Origin: Steroidobacteraceae bacterium
GTDB taxonomy: Bacteria > Pseudomonadota > Gammaproteobacteria > Steroidobacterales > Steroidobacteraceae
Reading direction: 5' to 3'
DNA length: 64,000 bases
Assembly: GCA_017853175.1 (NCBI GenBank)
Contig: JAFMKA010000001.1
Location: 84,576 to 148,575, forward strand
In this document: positions 39,790-55,891 of the stretch, piece by piece
How the letters are laid out: each line of letters starts with the position of its first letter
How positions within the stretch are numbered: the first letter of the stretch is position 1
The notes under the pieces: generated by a model
Told to the model about the DNA's origin: nothing
The model's database searches: none
What the model saw: the letters and a program-made list of their open reading frames with translations, nothing else
Position numbers and translations under genes: made by a program

Positions 39790-40323
39790 TTAATCGAGCG
39801 AGTCGAATTCTCGAGGCAGTCGATAGGTCTTTTTGAAGTCGACTAAAATCTTCTTCGCTTTCTGGCGTTCTTCAGTGGTGAGCAAGCGCTCGACCATCGC
39901 GGCGTTTTTTTCTACGGTCGAAACGAAATCTTTCTCCCAACCTCCGGCCGTTGCGCTCGAGATCGACATCCACACATAGGCCTTGAAAGGGTTGGGCTCT
40001 ACCCCTTTCCCGTAGGCGTAACGCAGACCGATTTCTGCTCGCGCTCGCGGGTTGCCGCGCTGCGCCGCGGTCAGATACCAGCGACTGGCGAGTCGCTCGT
40101 TTTTCTTGACGCACAAACCTCGTGCGTACAACTCGGCGAGACCGAAAGGTGACGTGGAGTCACCCGACTTCTCGCTTTTCATCCAGGCATCACGAGCTTC
40201 GCAGTATTGACCTGAGCGAAATAAATCAAAGCCGCGAATGAATTGCGCCTCGGCGACTGCAGGCAACGTCACGAACGCCAACGCGATCAGAGCGGCCGCA
40301 AAACGCCGATAGTCGTTCGTCAT
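39790..40323 (-). CDS. Sel1-repeat/TPR-like exported protein
   Basis: GLAELYARGLCVKKNERLASRWYLTAAQRGNPRARAEIGLRYAYGKGVEPNPFKAYVWMSIS. Confidence 0.85.
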   Translation of the reverse strand: MTNDYRRFAAALIALAFVTLPAVAEAQFIRGFDLFRSGQYCEARDAWMKSEKSGDSTSPFGLAELYARGLCVKKNERLASRWYLTAAQRGNPRARAEIGLRYAYGKGVEPNPFKAYVWMSISSATAGGWEKDFVSTVEKNAAMVERLLTTEERQKAKKILVDFKKTYRLPREFDSLD

Positions 40324-41372
40324 TTGGCAGGTCTCGTACCGTCACGGTAAAGGACGGTGATACTGATTCGACGGTTGCGAGGGTCTGCCGGATTTTCCGG
40401 ATTCACGGGCTGCGAATCGGCGACGCCTTCGATCCGAGAGAATCGAGAGTTGTCGACACCGATCGAGTTGAGGTACTGACGAGTCGAGTCGGCGCGATTC
40501 GCCGACAGACTCCAGTTGTTGTTACCGGCGGAGTTCTTGAACTGCAGGCTGTCGGTGTGTCCACGCACGGCAATCTCGTTGGGGATGCCCTTCAGACTCT
40601 CACCTACTTTCTCGATGAGTGCAACCGCCTCACCCGAAAGCTGGTTGGTTCCCGAACCGAACATCGAAAACCCGGCGTCATCCAGAATCTCGATGCGTAA
40701 CCCTTCCTTCTCACGAACGAACTTCACGACCGAAAGCAAATCAGACGTTTTTTGATCTGCGCCGATTTGCTTCTCGAGCGTGTCCTGCAGGTTCTCGAAA
40801 TTCTTTTCATCTTGCTCGGCAGCAATCTTGCGCTTCTCTTCCTCGCTAAGACCTTGCGGCAACGCTTGATCTTCCGAGGTGACTTCCTCCTCTTCTGTTC
40901 CGGGCGCCGTCAGTTGCTGGATGCCCGTCTGGGTCAGCGTAAGCGGAAGGGCTTTTGGATCGATCAACGACATACCACCAAAAAACCCAGTGGAACCACC
41001 CGACATATCGACGCGGGGTGCATTGGTGGGCTGAAAGTACTCGGCAATGCTCTTACGCTGATCGGCGTTGGTAGCGCCGAGCAACCACATGAGCAGGAAG
41101 AAGGCCATCATCGCCGTCATCATGTCGGCGAGCGCGATTTTCCAGGCGCCGCCGTGGCCACCTGCATGCCCCTCATCAATGATTTTTTTGATGATGATGG
41201 GCTGAAGAGGCGCGCCCCCTTCAGGCGCTGCCGGCGGCGCTTGGGCCCCGGCGTCTGCCGGCGCTGCAGTATCGGCCGGAGCAACAGCCGAGTCTCCGAC
41301 TTGAGTCGGATCGTCGGGAGCCGCCGCGTCCGGCGCGACCGCCGCAGGAGCGTTACTTGCCTCGGAGGCCAT
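40320..41372 (-). CDS. motB: Flagellar stator protein MotB
   Basis: PIIIKKIIDEGHAGGHGGAWKIALADMMTAMMAFFLLMWLLG; OmpA-like AVRGHTDSLQFKNSAGNNNWSLSANRADSTRQYL. Confidence 0.95.
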   Translation of the reverse strand: MASEASNAPAAVAPDAAAPDDPTQVGDSAVAPADTAAPADAGAQAPPAAPEGGAPLQPIIIKKIIDEGHAGGHGGAWKIALADMMTAMMAFFLLMWLLGATNADQRKSIAEYFQPTNAPRVDMSGGSTGFFGGMSLIDPKALPLTLTQTGIQQLTAPGTEEEEVTSEDQALPQGLSEEEKRKIAAEQDEKNFENLQDTLEKQIGADQKTSDLLSVVKFVREKEGLRIEILDDAGFSMFGSGTNQLSGEAVALIEKVGESLKGIPNEIAVRGHTDSLQFKNSAGNNNWSLSANRADSTRQYLNSIGVDNSRFSRIEGVADSQPVNPENPADPRNRRISITVLYRDGTRPAK

Positions 41373-42216
41373 CGAAGACTTCCGCGAAAGTGGGTGCTGA
41401 GTGATGGTCGATCGCAGCGCGAGCCGACTCGATGATCAAGGGAACCGGATCACCACGGATATGACCGATCAGCGTGAACTTCGCCACGGCGTAGATCTGG
41501 CCTTCTTCATCGATGATCTGCGCGAGGCGAGCGGCCAAAGGACCCACGATACCGTAGGCCATGAACACGCCGAGGAAGGTTCCGACGAGCGCACTACCAA
41601 TGAGTGCACCAAGAACTGACGGCGGCTGATCGATCGCCGCCATGGTCTTCACGACGCCCAGCACGCAGGCCACGATACCGAGCGCCGGCAGCGCGCCTTC
41701 GAGGTTCGCAAGCGCCTGCGCGGGTTTGAGCGCTGAGTGATGATGAGTCTTGATGGCGACAGTGAGATTGTCGGCAACCGTCTCAGGGTTCGGCGGCTGG
41801 TTCGACGTGACGAGCAGTCGAATCGTGTCGCAAATCATGCCGATCAGCGCGTGATCTTTGAGGAGCTTCGGGTACTCACCGAAAATCGAACTCGCTTCCG
41901 GATTCTCGATGTGAGGCTCGAGCGCCACGGCACCCTCAGCCTTGAGCAACTTGAATAGCTTGGTGATGAGCGTGATGGTGTCTTGGAATTCCTGCTTATG
42001 ATAAGCGGGGCCACTCAGACACTTGCCGATGCCCCCGCCGACACCCTTGAGAATCTCAAGACTGTTACCGATCACCATCGCGCCGATACCGGCTCCGAGG
42101 ATGATGCCCATCTCGGTCGGCGCCGCCTCGATGATGGGTGCCATAGGGCCGTGGTGAAGAATGTAAAACCCGAAAACACAGCCGAATAGGACGACCAACC
42201 CGATGATTACGAACAC
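41353..42216 (-). CDS. motA: Flagellar stator protein MotA
   Basis: PALGIVACVLGVVKTMAAIDQPPSVLGALIGSALVGTFLGVFMAYGIVGPLAARL. Confidence 0.95.
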   Translation of the reverse strand: MFVIIGLVVLFGCVFGFYILHHGPMAPIIEAAPTEMGIILGAGIGAMVIGNSLEILKGVGGGIGKCLSGPAYHKQEFQDTITLITKLFKLLKAEGAVALEPHIENPEASSIFGEYPKLLKDHALIGMICDTIRLLVTSNQPPNPETVADNLTVAIKTHHHSALKPAQALANLEGALPALGIVACVLGVVKTMAAIDQPPSVLGALIGSALVGTFLGVFMAYGIVGPLAARLAQIIDEEGQIYAVAKFTLIGHIRGDPVPLIIESARAAIDHHSAPTFAEVFDGLRGK

Positions 42217-42256: not shown

Positions 42257-43033
42257 TTAACCACGCAATTCCCCGTTTTTACTTGACGACTGTCGAGGGC
42301 GGGGAGCCCCCGTGCCGTTGGCGTTGGCATCGCCGTTGATCAACGCGCGCAACTGTTTGGCGATCGACGTCAGCATTTGGCTGACCCGCGATTCGCTCAC
42401 CGAAAGCACTGCGCCGATTTCGCGCAAAGTGAGTTCCCGATCGTAATAGAGCGCCACGACGGTCTTCTCACGTTCGGATAATGAAGCAATACCCTGCTTG
42501 AGGGCGATACGAATGCTGTCTTCGTCAGCCACTTCATCCGGTGTCGGCTCTTCGCTCGCAAAGTTGATCTCTTCGAGCGTGACCGAACCTGCAAGACCCT
42601 GATTACGTCCGCGAAGCTCGTGATAACGACCTACGTCTAATCCGAGCTCGTCGGCAATTTGACGATGAGTCGCCGGCAAGCCTTTTTCGTTTGCAATTCG
42701 GGTGGCTGCCGCGCGCGCCTCGACGGCGACCTTCACGGTACTGCGCGGCGCCCATGCCGCACGTCTGATTTCGTCGAGCATTGCGCCGCGAATTCGGAGT
42801 TTGGCGAACGTTTCGAAATCGTTCCCGCGCTCGGGGTCAAAGGACTCGATCGCCTCCATCAAACCCACGATGCCAGCCTGGACGAGATCTGAGTGCTCGA
42901 TAGCAGCAGGCAAACGTCCACGGAAATGCGCGGCGACGCGCTTCACCAACTTGAAGTGTGCAGCGAAGTCGGCGCTCGCGTTCGGCGCCGTCGACGAAGC
43001 GACTTCAGAGTATGCGTCGCCTAATCTTTTCAT
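42257..43033 (-). CDS. fliA: Flagellar sigma factor FliA (sigma-28)
   Basis: DLVQAGIVGLMEAIESFDPERGNDFETFAKLRIRGAMLDEIRRAAWAPRSTV; LSEREKTVVALYYDRELTLREIGAVLSVSESRVSQ. Confidence 0.95.
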   Translation of the reverse strand: MKRLGDAYSEVASSTAPNASADFAAHFKLVKRVAAHFRGRLPAAIEHSDLVQAGIVGLMEAIESFDPERGNDFETFAKLRIRGAMLDEIRRAAWAPRSTVKVAVEARAAATRIANEKGLPATHRQIADELGLDVGRYHELRGRNQGLAGSVTLEEINFASEEPTPDEVADEDSIRIALKQGIASLSEREKTVVALYYDRELTLREIGAVLSVSESRVSQMLTSIAKQLRALINGDANANGTGAPRPRQSSSKNGELRG

Positions 43034-43857
43034 TGGCTGCCCGTCCTGGCGGTTCCACCAACCAACTTCAGAAAGGCTCGAGAATTTTCATTATCGACTT
43101 TCAAACCTTCGAAACGCATCGCGATTTGATTGATTGCGGCAGTCGTCAAGCTACGCGGCGCGGCCTTGATGAGCGTTTCGCGACGACGTGTCGCCATCAT
43201 CACTTCCGATTCGTGAGGGACGATGCCCCCGAGTACGAGGTTCAACTCGAGGAAGCGCATCGCCACCTGTTGCAGCCGCTCGAAAACCTGCTGTCCACGC
43301 GGCACCGAAACAACGTCGTTGACGACGATCTCGAAGTTCCGATTGCCGAAGTCCTGGTGCATCACTTTGATGAGCCCATACGCATCGGCGAGCGAAGCCG
43401 GCTCATCGCGCACGACTACGACGATCGTGTCGGCGAGTCGAGCGAGCATGGTGACATGTTTACCGATTCCGGCACCGGTATCGATGATTACGAAATCGGC
43501 AGCTGGGGTCAGAGTACCGAGGGCCTGTACGACTTGCGTCATCTCGAGCGTACCCATCTCCGCCATGTCGCGCTTACCCGAAGACCCCGGTATGACCTTG
43601 ATACCCGCTGGTCCATCGAACAGCGTCTGCGAAAGAGTGCAGCGCCCTGCCACCGCGTCGGAGATATCGAACTGCGGTTGGATCCCTAACAGAACATGTA
43701 CGTTGGCCAGACCCATATCGCCATCGAACAGCCACACCGAGTGACCACGCGTTGCGAGGGCCGCCGCGACGTTGAGACTGAGGAACGTCTTGCCTACGCC
43801 CCCTTTCCCACTCGAGAAAGCGATGAATCGGGTTTTTCTTTCGCCGGAGTCGCTCAT
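43030..43857 (-). CDS. flhG: MinD-like ATPase FlhG/FleN
   Basis: FSSGKGGVGKTFLSLNVAAALA; DGDMGLANVHVLLGI; position between flhF and fliA. Confidence 0.93.
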   Translation of the reverse strand: MSDSGERKTRFIAFSSGKGGVGKTFLSLNVAAALATRGHSVWLFDGDMGLANVHVLLGIQPQFDISDAVAGRCTLSQTLFDGPAGIKVIPGSSGKRDMAEMGTLEMTQVVQALGTLTPAADFVIIDTGAGIGKHVTMLARLADTIVVVVRDEPASLADAYGLIKVMHQDFGNRNFEIVVNDVVSVPRGQQVFERLQQVAMRFLELNLVLGGIVPHESEVMMATRRRETLIKAAPRSLTTAAINQIAMRFEGLKVDNENSRAFLKLVGGTARTGSQ

Positions 43858-44930
43858 TCGATACCTTCCGGCGCGACTTCGAGCGTGAGTTCGAGCGCAT
43901 GGCGCACGGGCCCGCCGAGCGTATCGGCGGTCGGATGAATGAGAGAGGCGGTCGGATCGGCCGACACCGAAAGCCCCGCTAAGCGTAGCCCGCGCTCAGC
44001 CATGCTTCCGAGCAAGCCTAACGGCACCTCGGTCGATGACCAATGAGTGAGAATCACGCCGGCGATCGGGCCCGTGCACTCGAACCATCGTGCGGCAGTG
44101 AGGCGGTTAAGGTAAGCCGGGATACACAGATACAGATCGTAGCCGGCCAACTCCGGACGATCGGTCATCAAATCATCTCGGCTATAGCCACCGGCATCGA
44201 CCACGAGAGCGCCAGAGGCGACACCGCCCCAACTCGACTCAATCTGCGCCGCATCGGCCATGGCAAAGAATTTTTCGCGGGCACCCGGACGCGGATCGCG
44301 TGAGGCACTGACGACTGCCGGCAAAGATTTCGCTTTCGCGATCGACCGAGCGGCCTGCATCGCCGCGGTGGTCTTGCCACCCGCCGCCGGACCGACGAAT
44401 ACCGCAGTTCGGTCGCCGAGCGCAGCGCCCTCGGCGCCGCGATTGAGATCTTCCAGCAAGCGACTGCCCATCGACACCGAGTCGAGACCCGCCGCGATCA
44501 GTTGACTCGCATAAGCCGCCGAAACGCCCTGCTCGAGCAACGCCATTTTTTGCTTCAATCCGTGAATGCTGCCGCTGCTCGACGCAAGTCGCATCTCGAG
44601 CGCTTGGAGTTCTTTGCGGATCAGTCCGACGATCGCCTGCCCGTCATCGGCATCGACCGTCGCCGACGCGACAGGGGCCGCTGCCGTGAATACAGGCTTC
44701 GGGCGAGCCAGCATTTCTTCCTGCAGCGTTGCCGCGAAGGCCTCTCGCGCCTCCGCATCGACGATCGGCGTCTCTTCGTCTGCCATATCGTTGGTGCACA
44801 CGAGTAATTCGTGTGAGTTCCCGACGCGGCTTGAGGAAATCAGCAACGTGTTCGGTCCATACAAGCGACGTGACCGCTCACTCGCTTCGTTGAAGGTACC
44901 GGCAACCACTCGTTCGATACGCATGAACAA
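43854..44930 (-). CDS. flhF: FlhF-like SRP GTPase family protein with degenerate G motifs
   Basis: N-terminal RIERVVAGTFNEASERSRRLYGPNTLLISS; VFVGPAAGGKTTAAMQAA; syntenic with flhA/flhG. Confidence 0.88.
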   Translation of the reverse strand: MFMRIERVVAGTFNEASERSRRLYGPNTLLISSSRVGNSHELLVCTNDMADEETPIVDAEAREAFAATLQEEMLARPKPVFTAAAPVASATVDADDGQAIVGLIRKELQALEMRLASSSGSIHGLKQKMALLEQGVSAAYASQLIAAGLDSVSMGSRLLEDLNRGAEGAALGDRTAVFVGPAAGGKTTAAMQAARSIAKAKSLPAVVSASRDPRPGAREKFFAMADAAQIESSWGGVASGALVVDAGGYSRDDLMTDRPELAGYDLYLCIPAYLNRLTAARWFECTGPIAGVILTHWSSTEVPLGLLGSMAERGLRLAGLSVSADPTASLIHPTADTLGGPVRHALELTLEVAPEGIE

Positions 44931-44936
44931 TCCCCG

Positions 44937-47048
44937 TTAAGCCGCTGCAGTCTGCCGCGCTTGCACTGTGATACTGGTGTTGACTCGGAGGTTCGTGTCC
45001 TCCGGGAGTTCTGAATACGAAAGCACCGACAGCCCCGGAATCCGCGGCCGCAGAATACGTGACAACCAAGGTCGGAGCGTCGGCGACGTCACGAGCAACG
45101 CAGGTCGATCGCTATTCAACTCATCTTGCGACGCCTTGCTCACAGAACGTAGTAACCCCTCGGCGAGCTCAGGCTCCACCGGCACGTTGCCACCCTGACC
45201 ACGACGCGCCGTGGCATGCAGCACCTGCTCGAGCTCGGGTGCCAAGGTCATCACCGAAAGCTCATCGCCATGCTGTGCGTACTGCTGAACGATCATGCGA
45301 CCGAGCGCGATACGAGCCACGCCCGTGAGTTCATCGATGTCCTGAACTTTTTCGGCAACCGGCGCGATAGCGAGCAAAACACCACGAAGGTCGCGGATCG
45401 ATACGCCCTCGGCGAGCAAGTTCTGTAGAACTTGCGTGAGCGTACCAATCGACAATTTCTTCGGAATCAATTCTTCGACGAGTTTTGGCGCCGCGGCAGC
45501 CAGCTTGTCGACGAGCTGCTGCGTCTCATCATGACCTAACAGCAGATTACAGTTTTCCTGCAGGATTTTGTTGAGGTGCGTCGCGATCGTGGTGCTCGCA
45601 TCGACTACGGTGTAGCCGAGTGAGCGGGCGTAGTCACGCTGCGCCGGATCGATCCATACGGCATCGAGACCGAAAGTGGGGTCTTTCGTTCGCAGACCCT
45701 GCAGTTCGCCATGAACCACGCCCGAGTGAATCGCGAGCTCGCGAGTCGGCTTGACCTCGCCGCGCCCGATCACCACACCATTCACCATGATCTGATAGGC
45801 CTCGGGTCGCAGATCGAGGTTGTCGCGAATGTGAACCTGCGGAATGAGAAAGCCGAGTTCGTAGGTCAACTTCTTTCGAATTCCGCGGATGCGCGTGACC
45901 AGCGAACCCCCTTGCTGAGCGTCGATCAGCGCGACGAGCGCATAACCGACCTCGAGACCGATGGCATCAGCCTGCTGCACATCTGACCACGACAATTCTT
46001 TCGGAGCAGCCGGAGCCTCCTCGGACTTCTTCTCCGCGAGCTTCACCTTCTCGCGTCGACGCATCAGCAGCCAAGCGGCGCCCGCGGTGATCGCCGCGAG
46101 CGATAAAAACGCGACGTGCGGCATGCCCGGGATGACGCCGAGCAGCGCGAGGATGCATGCGGTCAGCCACCAGGCTTCGATATTGTTGAACTGATTGGAC
46201 GTCTGCTGATGCAGCGACTCTTCGCCGGATACGCGGGTCACGATGATCGCCGTCGCGACCGACAGCAACAGCGAGGGCACCTGGGCGACGAGTCCGTCAC
46301 CGACCGCAAGGGTGGTGTAACGCTCGAGAGCCATGCTCATAGACATCCCGTGCTTCATCGTACCGACGAGAATGCCGCCGACGATGTTGATGAGCAGAAT
46401 CAAAATACCGGCAACCGCGTCACCACGAACGAACTTGCTGGCACCGTCCATCGATCCGTAAAAATCGGCTTCAGATGAAATCTCGCGACGTCGTACCCTC
46501 GCCTGCTCCTGGTTGATCAGCCCCGCAGCGAGATCGGCATCGACGGCCATTTGCTTACCGGGCAAGGCATCGAGGGTAAATCGCGCGGTCACTTCGGACA
46601 CTCGTCCCGCACCTTTGGTGACGACGACGAAGTTGATGATGACGAGGATTGCGAAGACAACGATGCCGACGATGTAATCACCGGCGACAAGCACCGAACC
46701 GAAGGCTTCGATCACGTGACCTGCCGCATCGGTACCTTCGTGACCGGAGCTGAGCACCACTCGGGTCGAGGCCACGTTGAGCGCAAGGCGCAACAAAGTT
46801 GCGAAAAGCAGTACGGTCGGAAAGACCGAGAAGGAAAACGGCCGCGCGGTCGCGATCGCCAAAAACAAAATCACGAGCGACAAGGCGATGTTGAACGTGA
46901 AGAAAAGATCGAGGAGCAGCGGCGGAACCGGAAGCAGCAACATCCCGAGAAGCAGTAGGAACCCCAACGGGATCGCCACGGCCTCAAGCGGCAACTTCTT
47001 GCCGAATTGTCGAAGGTTCGACACCATGTCGAACGGGATATCTGCCAT
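44937..47048 (-). CDS. flhA: Flagellar export protein FlhA
   Basis: VPPLLLDLFFTFNIALSLVILFLA; TKGAGRVSEVTARFTLDALPGKQMAVDADLAAGLI FHIPEP motif. Confidence 0.97.
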   Translation of the reverse strand: MADIPFDMVSNLRQFGKKLPLEAVAIPLGFLLLLGMLLLPVPPLLLDLFFTFNIALSLVILFLAIATARPFSFSVFPTVLLFATLLRLALNVASTRVVLSSGHEGTDAAGHVIEAFGSVLVAGDYIVGIVVFAILVIINFVVVTKGAGRVSEVTARFTLDALPGKQMAVDADLAAGLINQEQARVRRREISSEADFYGSMDGASKFVRGDAVAGILILLINIVGGILVGTMKHGMSMSMALERYTTLAVGDGLVAQVPSLLLSVATAIIVTRVSGEESLHQQTSNQFNNIEAWWLTACILALLGVIPGMPHVAFLSLAAITAGAAWLLMRRREKVKLAEKKSEEAPAAPKELSWSDVQQADAIGLEVGYALVALIDAQQGGSLVTRIRGIRKKLTYELGFLIPQVHIRDNLDLRPEAYQIMVNGVVIGRGEVKPTRELAIHSGVVHGELQGLRTKDPTFGLDAVWIDPAQRDYARSLGYTVVDASTTIATHLNKILQENCNLLLGHDETQQLVDKLAAAAPKLVEELIPKKLSIGTLTQVLQNLLAEGVSIRDLRGVLLAIAPVAEKVQDIDELTGVARIALGRMIVQQYAQHGDELSVMTLAPELEQVLHATARRGQGGNVPVEPELAEGLLRSVSKASQDELNSDRPALLVTSPTLRPWLSRILRPRIPGLSVLSYSELPEDTNLRVNTSITVQARQTAAA

Positions 47049-47212: not shown

Positions 47213-47794
47213 GTGAGCAGTCGTATCGCACCAATACTGACCGTCTCAGCCGCGCTCGTCATGAGCGGCTGTGCGTCCCTGTCCGTAAAGGACCCTTTGG
47301 CACCACCAGAGCGTCCCGTCCGCGTGAGCGTGACGAACGGAAAGTCGTGGGAGCGTTTCACGCCTCGATCGGTGCTCTTGCACCGACGCGGCGCGGGTCG
47401 CCAGGACATCACCGTCGCGACGGTGACACCGCTTGAAGAGCCTGCCTCGATCGAGCGTCACGCACCCGCTCAAGTGCTGACTGACCTTACGGCCTCCGGT
47501 TTCGCATCGATCACCGCTCAGTCGGGCAGTGATGCCGCGCAGCGACGATTGCAAGCCGCTCGAGCAGCCAAGCTCGACGCGTATCGAAATCTTGCCGAGC
47601 AGCTCTATGGCGTCGAGTTCGCCAGTGACTCGGTCGTCGCCGATAGCCGTGTGCGTGAAGATCATATTCGAGTGCGGATCTCGGGTGTGATCGCCGGCGC
47701 TGAAGTCATCATGCTCGAACCGCTGGGCAACGACTCTTACCAAGCGACCGTGCGTCTGCCTGCGGCAAAAGTTGCGGCGCTGACCGGCCGGTAA
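47213..47794 (+). CDS. LPP20/FlgP-like lipoprotein
   Basis: LVMSGCASLSV lipobox; QAARAAKLDAYRNLAEQLYGVEF LPP20 motif; adjacent to an FlgT-like gene. Confidence 0.7.
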   Translation: MSSRIAPILTVSAALVMSGCASLSVKDPLAPPERPVRVSVTNGKSWERFTPRSVLLHRRGAGRQDITVATVTPLEEPASIERHAPAQVLTDLTASGFASITAQSGSDAAQRRLQAARAAKLDAYRNLAEQLYGVEFASDSVVADSRVREDHIRVRISGVIAGAEVIMLEPLGNDSYQATVRLPAAKVAALTGR

Positions 47795-47813: not shown

Positions 47814-48806
47814 GTGAATCACCTCGATACCCGACACTTTCGACGACACGCGGCGGCAACCTTCGGTCTGATCGTTGCACTTCTCGCCACGCCCTCCCCT
47901 GCGCAGCCACGCGACGACCGAATGGCGGATGCCTCGCAGCAGCGTGATGCCGAGAGACTGCAACGCTGCATCGAATCGCAGCTCGCTCCGTGGCAAGTGG
48001 AATCGACCGCGAGCACCGACGGTCGGGTGGGCGACACCGTTCGAGTCACACGTTGGGGCAACGCGCCAAAAGTTGACTGCAGTAATCGTGTTCGCTCGTC
48101 CGAGGAACACTGCCAAAGTCCCGGCGATCTCCAGCGTGTGGTTCGACTCGAATTTGACACGGGTGAAGCGCACCCGGCCTGGTCTGCGAATGATCGTGCT
48201 CGACTCGAGGATTTGATCCCGACGACTCTCGAGAACATCGCAGGCAACGTTCAGCTTCAGTACGGCGATCCGCGAAGCGCCGAGTTTACCGGCGAAATTC
48301 TGCGGGTCCGCCTCGACTATCGAGGCATGTCGGCCTTGCAGCGTGATGTCGATGAGTGGATTCGTGGCCCGCGCGAGTTGCAGGTCACTCTGACGCTCGT
48401 AGACCCCAGCCGCAGGAATCGCGTGCTCGCGGTTCGCACGGTGACGCTGCAACAGAGCCCACAGTTTCGCGAACGCTACGCGTCCACCTCGAGCACACGA
48501 TGGATGCGACAACTGCTCGAGCGTATCGAAGCTACCGCAAACGATGTTCTCGCTCCCGTGGCCTGCGATACACCGTGGCTCGATGTCACGGCCGATCGCG
48601 GCAAGATGTGGCTGAACACGGGGCGTTACACGGGGCTGCACGAAGGTCACTCGGTGTTGCTCGTACCGACGACCGATTCAGCGCTCGCGAGCCGTTGGCC
48701 TATCGCGAGAATCCGTACCCTCGTGAATGGAAGTCGCGCTGAGCTCGAGATCACTCGCGGGTCACGCGACTTATGCGAGCTCGGCTGTCGAGCGATTCTT
48801 CTCTAA
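47814..48806 (+). CDS. FlgT-like flagellar H-ring assembly protein
   Basis: Exported; repeated domain pattern and C-terminal TGLHEGHSVLLVPTT...WPIARIRTLVNGSRAELEI; partner to FlgP-like gene. Confidence 0.6.
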   Translation: MNHLDTRHFRRHAAATFGLIVALLATPSPAQPRDDRMADASQQRDAERLQRCIESQLAPWQVESTASTDGRVGDTVRVTRWGNAPKVDCSNRVRSSEEHCQSPGDLQRVVRLEFDTGEAHPAWSANDRARLEDLIPTTLENIAGNVQLQYGDPRSAEFTGEILRVRLDYRGMSALQRDVDEWIRGPRELQVTLTLVDPSRRNRVLAVRTVTLQQSPQFRERYASTSSTRWMRQLLERIEATANDVLAPVACDTPWLDVTADRGKMWLNTGRYTGLHEGHSVLLVPTTDSALASRWPIARIRTLVNGSRAELEITRGSRDLCELGCRAILL

Positions 48807-48807
48807 G

Positions 48808-49671
48808 TTAGCCACCCTGCTTTCGGATCGCCGGCACTCCGGACTGCAGTTCGCTACCGCGACGCTCGATGAGATCGCGAAGCGAAGCGATTTCTTTCTT
48901 TAAGCGTTCGAGTTCTGCAACCGTCGCCTTCAGATCTTTGGCCTGCGCATCGGAGAGCACGGCTACCGCGCGTTCTTTAGCAGGCTTTTTGTCAGAGTCA
49001 CCCTGCTTCTCGAGCGCCGCAAAACGCGCATCGATACGTGCGATGCCGCTTTCTAATCCACTGATCGATTTCTCGAGTTGAGCGAGGCGTTTTGACTCCT
49101 CGCTTTGGCGTGCCGCACCGGCTCGCGGGGCTTCGGCAACGGCGCCGCGCAGCGAGGCGAGCATCTCGTTCAATCGCCGAACCTCCAGTTGCTGCAGCGC
49201 GAGGCGATCCGTTTTGACTTGCTCACGGAGCGTCACCACTGCACGCTGGGTCGTGTCGTCGGCGATCTTCTGAAACTTCTCGAGATTAGATTCGAGCGTG
49301 GAGAGCTCTTTGAGCGTCTTCTCGACTTTTTCGAGGTTCTCCGCTTGTACTAAGATCGCGGCATCCAGTGCAGCCGAGCGTTCGTTGAGTTTTGAAAACA
49401 CCATCGCAACGACGACGGCCATCACGACACCCACGCTCAACATGATTGCGCCGAAGATCGCCGGAGCATTGCGAACCGCTCGCGTGGTCTCGAGATTGGT
49501 CTCGACCACATGAGATAGCCGAGAAATCGCCTCATGTGTCGACTGGGCGCTGTCGTTGGCAGCGTCTGCCGCATCGAGCACGAGCGAAGTCAGTGTCTCG
49601 AGAGGGCTATCGCTCGCGGCGTTCTGGGGGTTCTTGACCTCAGGCTGTTCACTCATTTGACTGATCTCCAT
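48808..49671 (-). CDS. Uncharacterised coiled-coil single-TM protein
   Basis: TM APAIFGAIMLSVGVVMAVVVAMVF followed by a long heptad-rich region. Confidence 0.7.
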   Translation of the reverse strand: MEISQMSEQPEVKNPQNAASDSPLETLTSLVLDAADAANDSAQSTHEAISRLSHVVETNLETTRAVRNAPAIFGAIMLSVGVVMAVVVAMVFSKLNERSAALDAAILVQAENLEKVEKTLKELSTLESNLEKFQKIADDTTQRAVVTLREQVKTDRLALQQLEVRRLNEMLASLRGAVAEAPRAGAARQSEESKRLAQLEKSISGLESGIARIDARFAALEKQGDSDKKPAKERAVAVLSDAQAKDLKATVAELERLKKEIASLRDLIERRGSELQSGVPAIRKQGG

Positions 49672-49698
49672 GACGACGGCGTGAAGACATCACGCCGA

Positions 49699-50181
49699 TC
49701 ATTTTCCGTTCTCGCCACGAAGCCGCCGCGTACGGGCGACCGTGGCATTGATTCTTTCGCGCAGGCTATCGGAGAAGGTCATCGCTTCAGCAATGCGATT
49801 GACTTCTGCAAGCATGGCCTCGGCTTTCTGATGCGCTTCCTCGATCTGCGACTGACGCTGTTCCACCGACTGCACTAAGGCGTCCACTTTGGCTGCGGAG
49901 GCTTCAAGACTCTCGAGTGTCTCATCAACTTTCGCCCTGGGATCGACCTCTTCCTCTATGGGCGCGCGCGTGATGGGCGTCAGACCCGAATCGACATCGA
50001 CCACGTCTTGCGCCGTATGAAAGTCTTCGGCGCCGCGCTCGACGGCCACATCAGAGACCGCAGAGTTAGTTCCCGAGTTCAGTCGCTGGACGGGCATATC
50101 ACCGGACTTAAATACTCCCGTGACTTCTCCATGCGCTGCGCCCGAATCGCTATGGTCCATGTCTGTCGGCAACTTCGTCAT
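49699..50181 (-). CDS. Uncharacterised C-terminal coiled-coil protein
   Basis: KVDETLESLEASAAKVDALVQSVEQRQSQIEEAHQKAEAMLAEVNRIAEAM; no TM. Confidence 0.65.
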   Translation of the reverse strand: MTKLPTDMDHSDSGAAHGEVTGVFKSGDMPVQRLNSGTNSAVSDVAVERGAEDFHTAQDVVDVDSGLTPITRAPIEEEVDPRAKVDETLESLEASAAKVDALVQSVEQRQSQIEEAHQKAEAMLAEVNRIAEAMTFSDSLRERINATVARTRRLRGENGK

Positions 50182-50185
50182 GGCT

Positions 50186-51199
50186 TCATCCTCCAGTCTT
50201 GCGCTTGGGTGCTACAGCGGCGCGCGCCACAGCTGGCTCCACACGACACGCGCCGAGTCGCCACACTTGGGTACGTGCAGCAGCCGCAGCCGATTCACTC
50301 GCGAACGGCCCGACCTGCAGACGGAACCGGCCGGACTCATTAGTCACACGCGTCGGCGTGGTACGGCCGATACGCGCGATCAGAACGTCGACGGACTCAC
50401 GATCGCCGTGAAGACCGCAGTCGTAAACCAACGACGACGATTTCGAGGGCGTCAAGAAGGCGCTTTGTACCGCATAGCCGATTAACAAGACGGCTACGAC
50501 GGCCGCGACGGCCTTGACGGGCATGGTCAGCCAACGACGTGGCGACGTCACATCAAATCCGCGAGTCTCCGCTCTCTCGCGCGCGAGCTCCGCAAGTACA
50601 TCGGGTATCGCGGCCGCGGTCGGCGCTGCGACCTTTGGTGTTGCAACCGCGGGTGTTGCAACCGCTGGCGTAGCGACCGGAGGCGGCATCGGCACCGACG
50701 GAATAACCGGTGCGTCCATGTCGGCGGAAAGCTCGATTTCACTTTCGCCCAAGCCGTCGATATCCCAGATCATCGCGAGGTCGGTGACCTCGGAGATCGG
50801 CAGTCGCTGCAGACCCGCTCGCGTGCATCGTGCAAGCAGTAGCGTTCTGAAGGGACTACCGCGAAGTCCTTGAACGATTCGGCGCAAGGATGCCGCTTCG
50901 ACAGACGATAGCGACTCCGCATCATCGATGATCAAAAGATGTGGGGGATTTTGTTTGCCGCTCGCCAACAATGACTCGAGCGGAATTTCCGCCAGCAGCC
51001 GATTGGCCGACTGAAGCAAAGATTCGGCATCGCCGGGCGCATGAAACTCGACTCGGGCTCCGCCCTGACGTAAATCACGAACGAAATCTCGCGCACTCGC
51101 AGAGAGCGACTCACTCGATGCCGAGCAGAGCAGCAGAAGCGGTGGCGTGCCGCTCAGCACGCACTCGCGCGCTACGGCTGCGTTATCAGTTGCCGTCAT
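50186..51199 (-). CDS. DamX-like protein: degenerate ATPase-like N-domain, TM, SPOR domain
   Basis: HLLIIDDAESLSSVEAASLRRIVQGLRGSPFRTLLLA (AAA-like Walker B region), TM VKAVAAVVAVLLIGYAV, SPOR-like RFRLQVGPFASESAAAAARTQVW. Confidence 0.65.
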   Translation of the reverse strand: MTATDNAAVARECVLSGTPPLLLLCSASSESLSASARDFVRDLRQGGARVEFHAPGDAESLLQSANRLLAEIPLESLLASGKQNPPHLLIIDDAESLSSVEAASLRRIVQGLRGSPFRTLLLARCTRAGLQRLPISEVTDLAMIWDIDGLGESEIELSADMDAPVIPSVPMPPPVATPAVATPAVATPKVAAPTAAAIPDVLAELARERAETRGFDVTSPRRWLTMPVKAVAAVVAVLLIGYAVQSAFLTPSKSSSLVYDCGLHGDRESVDVLIARIGRTTPTRVTNESGRFRLQVGPFASESAAAAARTQVWRLGACRVEPAVARAAVAPKRKTGG

Positions 51200-54461: not shown

Positions 54462-54773
54462 TTAAAGATGCTTGACGCGGTCTTCCGGATCGACCACCTG
54501 AGTCAATCGGATTCCGTAGCGTTCGTTGACCAACACCACTTCGCCACGAGCGATGACGGTGTTGTTGACACAGACATCGAGCGGCTCACCGGCCACGCGA
54601 TCGAGCTCGACCACGCTGCCCTGCCCGAGACGCAGCAGGTCGCGGATACGAAGCAATGAGCGCCCGACCTCAACCGAAACACTCACCGCGACGTTCTGGA
54701 TCAACTCCAGCTGAACTGCAGACTCCGCTCCGCCGTCACCCTTCGAAATATTGTTTGTCGCTGACTCGTTCAT
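54462..54773 (-). CDS. fliN: Flagellar switch protein FliN
   Basis: VAVSVSVEVGRSLLRIRDLLRLGQGSVVELDRVAGEPLDVCVNNTVIARGEVVLVNERYGIRL. Confidence 0.96.
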   Translation of the reverse strand: MNESATNNISKGDGGAESAVQLELIQNVAVSVSVEVGRSLLRIRDLLRLGQGSVVELDRVAGEPLDVCVNNTVIARGEVVLVNERYGIRLTQVVDPEDRVKHL

Positions 54774-55891
54774 GCTGCCGTTGCTCCTACAATTTTTCCT
54801 GTTTGCGTCGCTGCACGCTTTCTTCGCGCAGCCGCGTTATTACCCACTTCCGACTCATCGGCGTGCTCGGCACCTGCGCTATCGGACCCGTTCTTGTTTT
54901 CTTCCGGAGGATCGAGAACACGCTCGATGCGAATTGCCGCGTTACCATCGGCCGTACCGTACTCGGCATCGAATACGTGTGAGGACTGGACGAGCACCTT
55001 GACGCTCGGCGGCGGCTTGAACCACAGCGTATCGCCCGCTCTAATCGAGGCGAGATCGAGCGCCGACACGCGAAGCGTGACGAGCTGCGCCACCATCTCG
55101 AGCTCTGCATCCGATACCGCGTCTCGCAATTGGTCGGACCACCGGGCCGCGAGCTTCTCGTCTCGTTCGCCCGCCTGTAGACGGCCGCGCAACAGCAATC
55201 GAATCGGCTTCAACGCAGAAAACGGGTACATCACCGTCAGTTGACCGCGAACGTCGGAACCTAACTCGAGTTCGAATCGACTGACGACGACGGTCTCACG
55301 GTCTTCACCCACCTGCGCAAACGCAGGGTTGATTTCGCGGCTGACGAATTCCGGATTGAGTGCATAGACCGGTGCCCAGGCCTCGCGAAGGTTGTCGAAC
55401 ACCGACTCGAGCAACAACTGAATGATGCGCTCCTCGGTCGGCGTGAAGCCTCGCAAAGGCGAGAGTTCGAGAGATCCGCCACCGCGACCACCGAAGAAGC
55501 TGTCCACGGCGCCATAGACGATCGACGGCTCGAGCGTCACAAGTCCGTAACCACGCAAGGGCGGGAAACGAACGATGTTGACGTTACAGGGCGACGGCAA
55601 AGTCTTGAGATAGGCGCTGAAGGTCATGACGTCGAACGGCATCACTGTCACCTTGACCGCCTGCCGAAGCAAGGTCAGGAGACTGCCGCGGAACTGCCGC
55701 GAGAAACGATCATTGATCATCTCGAGCGCAGCGAGTTGGCCGCGAGAAGTGGTGTCGTTAGCGATGAGGCTATACGGCTGCACCTCGGAGGACGACGTGT
55801 CCCCGGCGCTCGTGTCGACGTCGCCGCTCTGCATGGCCTCGACCAGCGCGGAGACTTCCTCTCGACTGAGGACTTGACCAGACGTAGACAT
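54770..55891 (-). CDS. fliM: Flagellar switch protein FliM
   Basis: VLSREEVSALVEAM; GYGLVTLEPSIVYGAVDSFFGG. Confidence 0.96.
   Translation of the reverse strand: MSTSGQVLSREEVSALVEAMQSGDVDTSAGDTSSSEVQPYSLIANDTTSRGQLAALEMINDRFSRQFRGSLLTLLRQAVKVTVMPFDVMTFSAYLKTLPSPCNVNIVRFPPLRGYGLVTLEPSIVYGAVDSFFGGRGGGSLELSPLRGFTPTEERIIQLLLESVFDNLREAWAPVYALNPEFVSREINPAFAQVGEDRETVVVSRFELELGSDVRGQLTVMYPFSALKPIRLLLRGRLQAGERDEKLAARWSDQLRDAVSDAELEMVAQLVTLRVSALDLASIRAGDTLWFKPPPSVKVLVQSSHVFDAEYGTADGNAAIRIERVLDPPEENKNGSDSAGAEHADESEVGNNAAARRKRAATQTGKIVGATAA

Follow-up and report, generated by a model that had tools for sequence, protein, structure and literature searches.

Flagellar genes of the window

The window, that is, the whole stretch of 64,000 nucleotides that was analysed, lies on contig C38 of a MAG (81% complete, 1.92 Mb) of an uncultured bacterium whose group is found in lake metagenomes. 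Its minus strand carries a flagellar cluster composed of fliF, fliG, fliH, fliI, fliJ, fliK, fliL, fliM, fliP, fliR and flhB, three conserved unknown genes, and flhA, flhF, flhG, fliA, motA and motB. The order flhA-flhF-flhG-fliA is that of gammaproteobacterial polar clusters. On this strand, flhA is located at 44937-47048, fliA, encoding sigma-28, at 42257-43033, directly downstream of flhG, and motA together with motB at 40320-42216. The product of fliM (54770-55891, minus strand) has the N-terminus LSREEVSALV, which resembles the EIDAL-type motif; in other systems, this FliM motif binds FlhG/CheY.

The flhG gene (43030-43857, minus strand) encodes a MinD-type ATPase of 275 aa with the N-terminus MSDSGERKTRFIAFSSGKGGVGKT. 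Its deviant Walker A motif GKGGVGKT (residues 17-24, 43786-43809) is preceded by 16 residues (43810-43857) in which DQAxxLR, the motif of the N-terminal enhancer helix, is absent. This agrees with the first-pass annotation, which had counted about 15 residues before Walker A and no such motif. The same annotation stated that no upstream start existed because the open reading frame was maximal. This reason was not quite right, since the frame is open for approximately 46 codons further 5' (321 aa from stop to stop). However, the additional stretch lies inside flhF and contains neither an ATG, GTG or TTG codon nor DQAxxLR, and therefore the conclusion that the helix is missing stands, and a helix hidden by a misplaced start was rejected. 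The flhG ATG and the end of flhF (43854) share 4 bases, an arrangement to be expected if the gene is coupled within an operon. DQAxxLR was also absent in relatives, in each of the 11 divergent FlhGs that were scored, so its absence is due neither to chance nor to misannotation. Walker A of the form KGGVGK[TS], the MinD-type sequence and the location immediately after flhF within a flagellar cluster are those of FlhG/FleN proteins. The helix is reported for FlhG and reported absent in Pseudomonas FleN, and in lacking it the window protein resembles the FleN type; its top PDB match was FleN 5j1j (E 6.5e-56, alignment starting at residue 9).

The adjacent flhF gene (43854-44924, minus strand) encodes a divergent SRP-type NTPase of 356 aa starting from the ATG at 44924, and an ORF caller may choose the TTG at 44930. 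The conserved N-terminal segment MRIERV...FxEASE (residues 1-44, 44793-44924) is located where S. putrefaciens FlhF has its FliG-interacting domain, from which its function may be deduced (PMC11236974). The G1/P-loop GPAAGGKTT (residues 178-186, 44367-44393) is kept. The segment RDPRPGARE (residues 209-217, 44274-44300), the counterpart of DTYRIGAxE, has kept the catalytic-type Arg and lost the aromatic residue. G3 is DAGG (residues 243-246, 44187-44198) in place of canonical DTAG, and G4 is THWSS (residues 293-297, 44034-44048) in place of canonical TKLDE, that is, the guanine-specificity motif TKxD is lost. In database comparisons, the protein gave no Pfam SRP54 match and reached 31.8 bits (E 1.4e-7) against TIGR03499, for which the cut-off is 174. 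By hhalign, its profile was aligned with canonical FlhFs over 334 columns with a probability of 99.6%. The AlphaFold model built from 4 sequences was of low confidence (pLDDT 55), and its Foldseek matches to the NG folds of FtsY, Ffh and FlhF were thus taken as supportive evidence only. Based on its sequence, with an N-terminal domain and an NG region homologous to FlhF/FtsY/Ffh, the protein is an FlhF by descent and position and a putative GTPase.

Alignment of 11 divergent FlhFs demonstrated that GPxxxG[KR]TT (Lys in 10/11, replaced by Arg in L107), R212 of DxYR, D243 of G3 and RDxRxGxRE are kept, and that the N-terminal MRIERV, [TS]HW at G4 and W232-G233 are shared, whereas G4 itself (TKxD to [TS]HW[DES]), the DxYR aromatic residue and the TAG of G3 are lost. 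The earlier claim of a loss of the FlhF G motifs was therefore too strong; it holds for G4 and fails for the P-loop, the Arg of DxYR and the G3 Asp. At the last G4 position, the outer members G012, G078, G021 and G040 have Asp, G316 has Glu, and the window's subclade has Ser. According to this alignment, G4 decays stepwise within the clade ([TS]HWD, THWE, THWS), all members of which are already helix-less. The flhF gene evolves faster than flhG and flhA, with dN/dS of 0.115-0.124 (four pairs) versus 0.011-0.066 for flhA. A value of about 0.12 reflects purifying selection and thus a functional derived protein; the possibility that flhF/flhG are pseudogenes was rejected, because the genes are also open in all relatives.

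The divergent FlhF/FlhG pair was found in 7 of 100 genomes of the window's GTDB family. Three of these (G012, G021 and G040) additionally contain a canonical FlhF/FlhG in a separate flagellar cluster. The divergent FlhA proteins are 79-94% identical within the clade and approximately 51% identical to the canonical FlhA of the genomes that have both, and in the tree a long branch leads to a clade of their own with full support. The best match outside the clade was 59% for FlhA among 369 genomes of the class and 43% for FlhG among 289 genomes of the phylum, and no close outside source of the system was found in these two samples. The divergence of FlhA, its separate long-branched clade and the coexistence with a canonical system indicate that the pair belongs to an old, separate flagellar system. 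In the window's MAG (81% complete), no second, canonical FlhF was found, and the divergent system was the only one detected.

Loss of the FlhG helix and its association with FlhF motifs

The strict DQAxxLR motif was found in none of the 60 pairs from the window's family, including 49 canonical ones; relics of the helix, scored by pattern (e.g., TQASGLTR and MQTAGLRR), occurred in 13 of these 49. Nevertheless, G4 retains [KR] and Asp in 48 of the 49 helix-less canonical pairs. The one that differs, with THLDE, is the canonical FlhF of G012, a genome also carrying the divergent system. This protein (L012, G012:C10) has VESR in place of DTYR as well, a case of parallel erosion in a genome with the divergent system. 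Outside this family, 124 pairs from 77 families of the class were scored, and the strict motif was present in 81 of them; the helix was absent in many other lineages with intact FlhF. Parsimony gave 12-13 helix losses and about 6 losses of the DxYR aromatic residue in the sampled class. FleN of Pseudomonas, like FlhG of the window, lacks DQAxxLR according to a 2025 paper (PMC12713375). Because canonical pairs without the helix have an intact G4 and Pseudomonas FleN already lacks the helix, the joint loss of helix and G4 that had been proposed for this locus was rejected. Loss of the helix is nothing unusual, and it seems to come before the erosion of FlhF, as judged by parsimony and likelihood on gene trees built from FlhF and FlhG themselves. 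In a 2025 review, the helix counts as a regular component of the FlhF-FlhG switch (PMC12826062); it is treated as a defining part, yet it is missing in a large share of the sampled Pseudomonadota.

In a first survey at the class level, the DxYR aromatic residue was present in 80/80 scorable strict-helix pairs versus 13/28 helix-less pairs. Among 227 pairs, it was kept in 109/110 pairs with the helix, in 33/106 canonical helix-less pairs and in 0/11 pairs of the window's clade; the sole pair with a helix and without the aromatic residue (L240) has the altered motif DQEVGLK. A Pagel-type test of the helix against this residue gave p 9.8e-7, and p 6.4e-6 when the window's family was left out. The data comprise MAGs and gene trees with few independent events by parsimony, and the coupling might be an artefact of the tree, with a few helix-less clades that happen to have changed DxYR. 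The helix state is indeed clade-structured, and strict parsimony, with its approximately 6 aromatic losses, gave the weaker p 0.0018. However, this explanation is highly improbable given the likelihood result without the window's family, the comparison with other FlhF columns described below and the repetition of the pattern in other classes of the phylum, where the residue was present in 16/16 pairs with the helix versus 0/13 without it. For that phylum sample, the motif was widened to [DN]Q[AVE]xx[LIM][RK] within 110 residues, the earlier limit having been about 40 residues from Walker A. The sample had at first seemed discordant, as the distance from the helix to the Walker A that follows it is 40-60 residues in some FlhGs, and since the widening was made post hoc, after inspection of the data, the replication is good and not blind. 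The DTFR group in the sample of other classes represents one related set of families.

To compare the DxYR aromatic residue with other positions, the 93 FlhF columns whose conservation among lineages with the helix is 97% or higher were scanned. The residue (position 234) ranked first of the 93, in the window's family as well as in other families, and a second aromatic residue, located 11 residues after it, ranked second. In a likelihood test of each column, on a tree built without the DxYR region and with the window's family removed, position 234 had an LR of 21.9; the next column had 11.6, and the median was 0.9. In helix-less lineages, the other highly conserved columns were on average 94% conserved, versus 50% for the DxYR aromatic residue. 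This difference makes it improbable that the covariation simply marks weak constraint, with FlhF drifting under relaxed selection where flagellar placement hardly matters and no new mechanism involved. Such drift would fit the faster evolution of flhF relative to flhG and flhA and the FlhF identity within the clade, which falls to 34% where that of FlhA is near 79% or above, but it is also at odds with the low dN/dS of flhF and with the clade-specific invariants RDxRxGxRE, [TS]HW and W232-G233.

The G4 Lys was kept in 81/81 strict-helix pairs, and its replacement by Arg or His, as well as loss of the catalytic Arg (G896, G758, G700), was observed solely in helix-less pairs. No FlhF with eroded GTPase residues beside an intact helix was found among the pairs surveyed. 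Within the sequences compared, the association is real and one-way: erosion of FlhF motifs is nearly confined to pairs without the FlhG helix. Since 33/106 helix-less canonical FlhFs keep the aromatic residue, the release is permissive and not forced. The co-evolution of FlhF and FlhG suggested by the first-pass annotation thus holds as an association (227 pairs, p of about 1e-6), one-way and centred mainly on the DxYR region rather than on G4; the correlation that it proposed to look for, between loss of FlhF G4 and loss of DQAxxLR, was seen in one direction, as many intact FlhFs are helix-less. The GTPase-independent control that the annotation also suggested is a prediction. The one-way coupling is new, whereas loss of the helix is by itself frequent and had been reported earlier for Pseudomonas.

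Several eroded FlhFs from other classes were also recorded beside helix-less FlhGs: L323/L338 (G896, G758) have a P-loop Arg and no catalytic Arg, L324 (G700) has Lys in place of the catalytic Arg, and L325 (G921) has THLDA at G4.

Possible role of the DxYR residue and of the derived pair

In canonical FlhF, the Arg after the DxYR aromatic residue lies 29 residues past the P-loop Lys, which is the spacing of K222 and R251 in P. aeruginosa FlhF, where R251 has been called the catalytic-site Arg. In V. alginolyticus FlhF, the R334A substitution, the counterpart of R251, abolished GTPase activity, and flagellation was normal (PMC6092412). Similarly, the title of a study on P. aeruginosa describes FlhF R251G as GTPase-dead and still placing the flagellum. 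Loss of FlhF GTPase harms motility in P. aeruginosa, so hydrolysis is not dispensable everywhere. R334A and R251G are changes made in the laboratory to a GTPase that is intact in other respects, whereas G4 of the window FlhF has been replaced naturally. The DxYR aromatic residue is present in both PDB FlhFs and may contact the FlhG helix.

Compared with the canonical polar switch of Shewanella, Vibrio and Bacillus subtilis, the window's pair has the same domain order of FlhF (FliG-interacting N-terminus, NG fold) and the same MinD-type ATPase in FlhG, but FlhG lacks the enhancer helix and FlhF lacks TKxD and the DxYR aromatic residue. The pair is probably a derived and functional FlhF/FlhG module that belongs to a second flagellar system of old origin; in this module, the helix would have been lost first, and FlhF residues would then have been released. 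The association on the tree is observed, and the order of events would be as follows. Once the enhancer helix had gone, FlhF residues involved in the GTP hydrolysis that it stimulates would have been released, above all the aromatic residue before the catalytic Arg in DxYR, and in the window's lineage G4 would then have decayed too. The most likely mechanism is that the N-terminal domain of FlhF acts as an adaptor capturing FliG/FliF, that the NG domain serves as a polar tether to a landmark, and that nucleotide binding is at most structural, without hydrolysis triggered by FlhG. FlhG would retain its MinD-type ATPase and set the flagellar number via the FliM N-terminus and transcription regulators, as in FleN-type proteins. 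In S. putrefaciens FlhF, FliG is bound by the N-terminal domain, and binding of HubP by the NG domain does not depend on nucleotide (PMC11236974). A FimV/HubP C-terminal domain is present in the window's genome; the FleQ N-terminal domain was not found in the MAG, which says little at a completeness of 81%.

Retention of the P-loop, the Arg and the G3 Asp counts against this explanation, since FlhF may still bind and hydrolyse GTP or a different nucleotide. Accordingly, it was considered whether the GTPase still works with the altered G4 (THWS) and is stimulated via a different contact by FlhG or by another protein, such as FliG or a FipA-like one. Stimulation of this kind may hold for Pseudomonas FleN, as Pseudomonas-like pairs keep DxYR (MGMHPVQVIAVT, DSYR/DSFR), and the outer members of the window's clade retain the G4 Asp ([TS]HWD). 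A working GTPase is nonetheless rather unlikely for the window FlhF, because the G4 Asp is gone in its subclade and L107 has Arg in place of the P-loop Lys. Unlike the window FlhF, Pseudomonas-like FlhFs keep DxYR/DxFR, DTAG and TKxDE.

If the derived-module explanation is taken further, the aromatic residue might be the FlhF-side partner of the helix, and repeated helix loss might turn the switch into a GTPase-eroded and eventually nucleotide-independent scaffold. This extension is tentative, and belief in it falls somewhat short of even. If it is true, the window's clade would be the most advanced case, and the eroded FlhFs of G896/G758 and G921 would be others in further lineages. The coupling predicts which FlhFs are helix-activated and singles out one residue, and natural GTPase-eroded FlhFs provide a means of asking whether flagellar placement needs GTP hydrolysis, a question on which species disagree.

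Other genes of the divergent clusters

The three unknown genes that separate flhB from flhA (48808-51199, minus strand), one of which encodes a SPOR domain, kept their order in every divergent cluster examined there, with 23-57% identity, and look like accessory parts of the divergent flagellum. Two small genes at 47213-47794 and 47814-48806 (both plus strand) face the flagellar operon; their products are secreted or lipoprotein-like with no Pfam match, and it may be guessed that they are possibly parts of an outer flagellar ring. In G021 (L079, 4890-6968), MotA/MotB near the divergent cluster are 34-38% identical to those of the window, whereas the identity in other clade members is 78-96%; this divergence suggests replacement of the stator. 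Finally, two public MAG contigs, L015 (CAMAQZ010000077.1), labelled Klebsiella pneumoniae, and L014 (RFZO01000045.1), labelled Actinomycetota, carry the gammaproteobacterial divergent flagellar cluster described here. Both labels look wrong; L015 has 7,627 bases, as does G049:C77, and the proteins of the two are identical.
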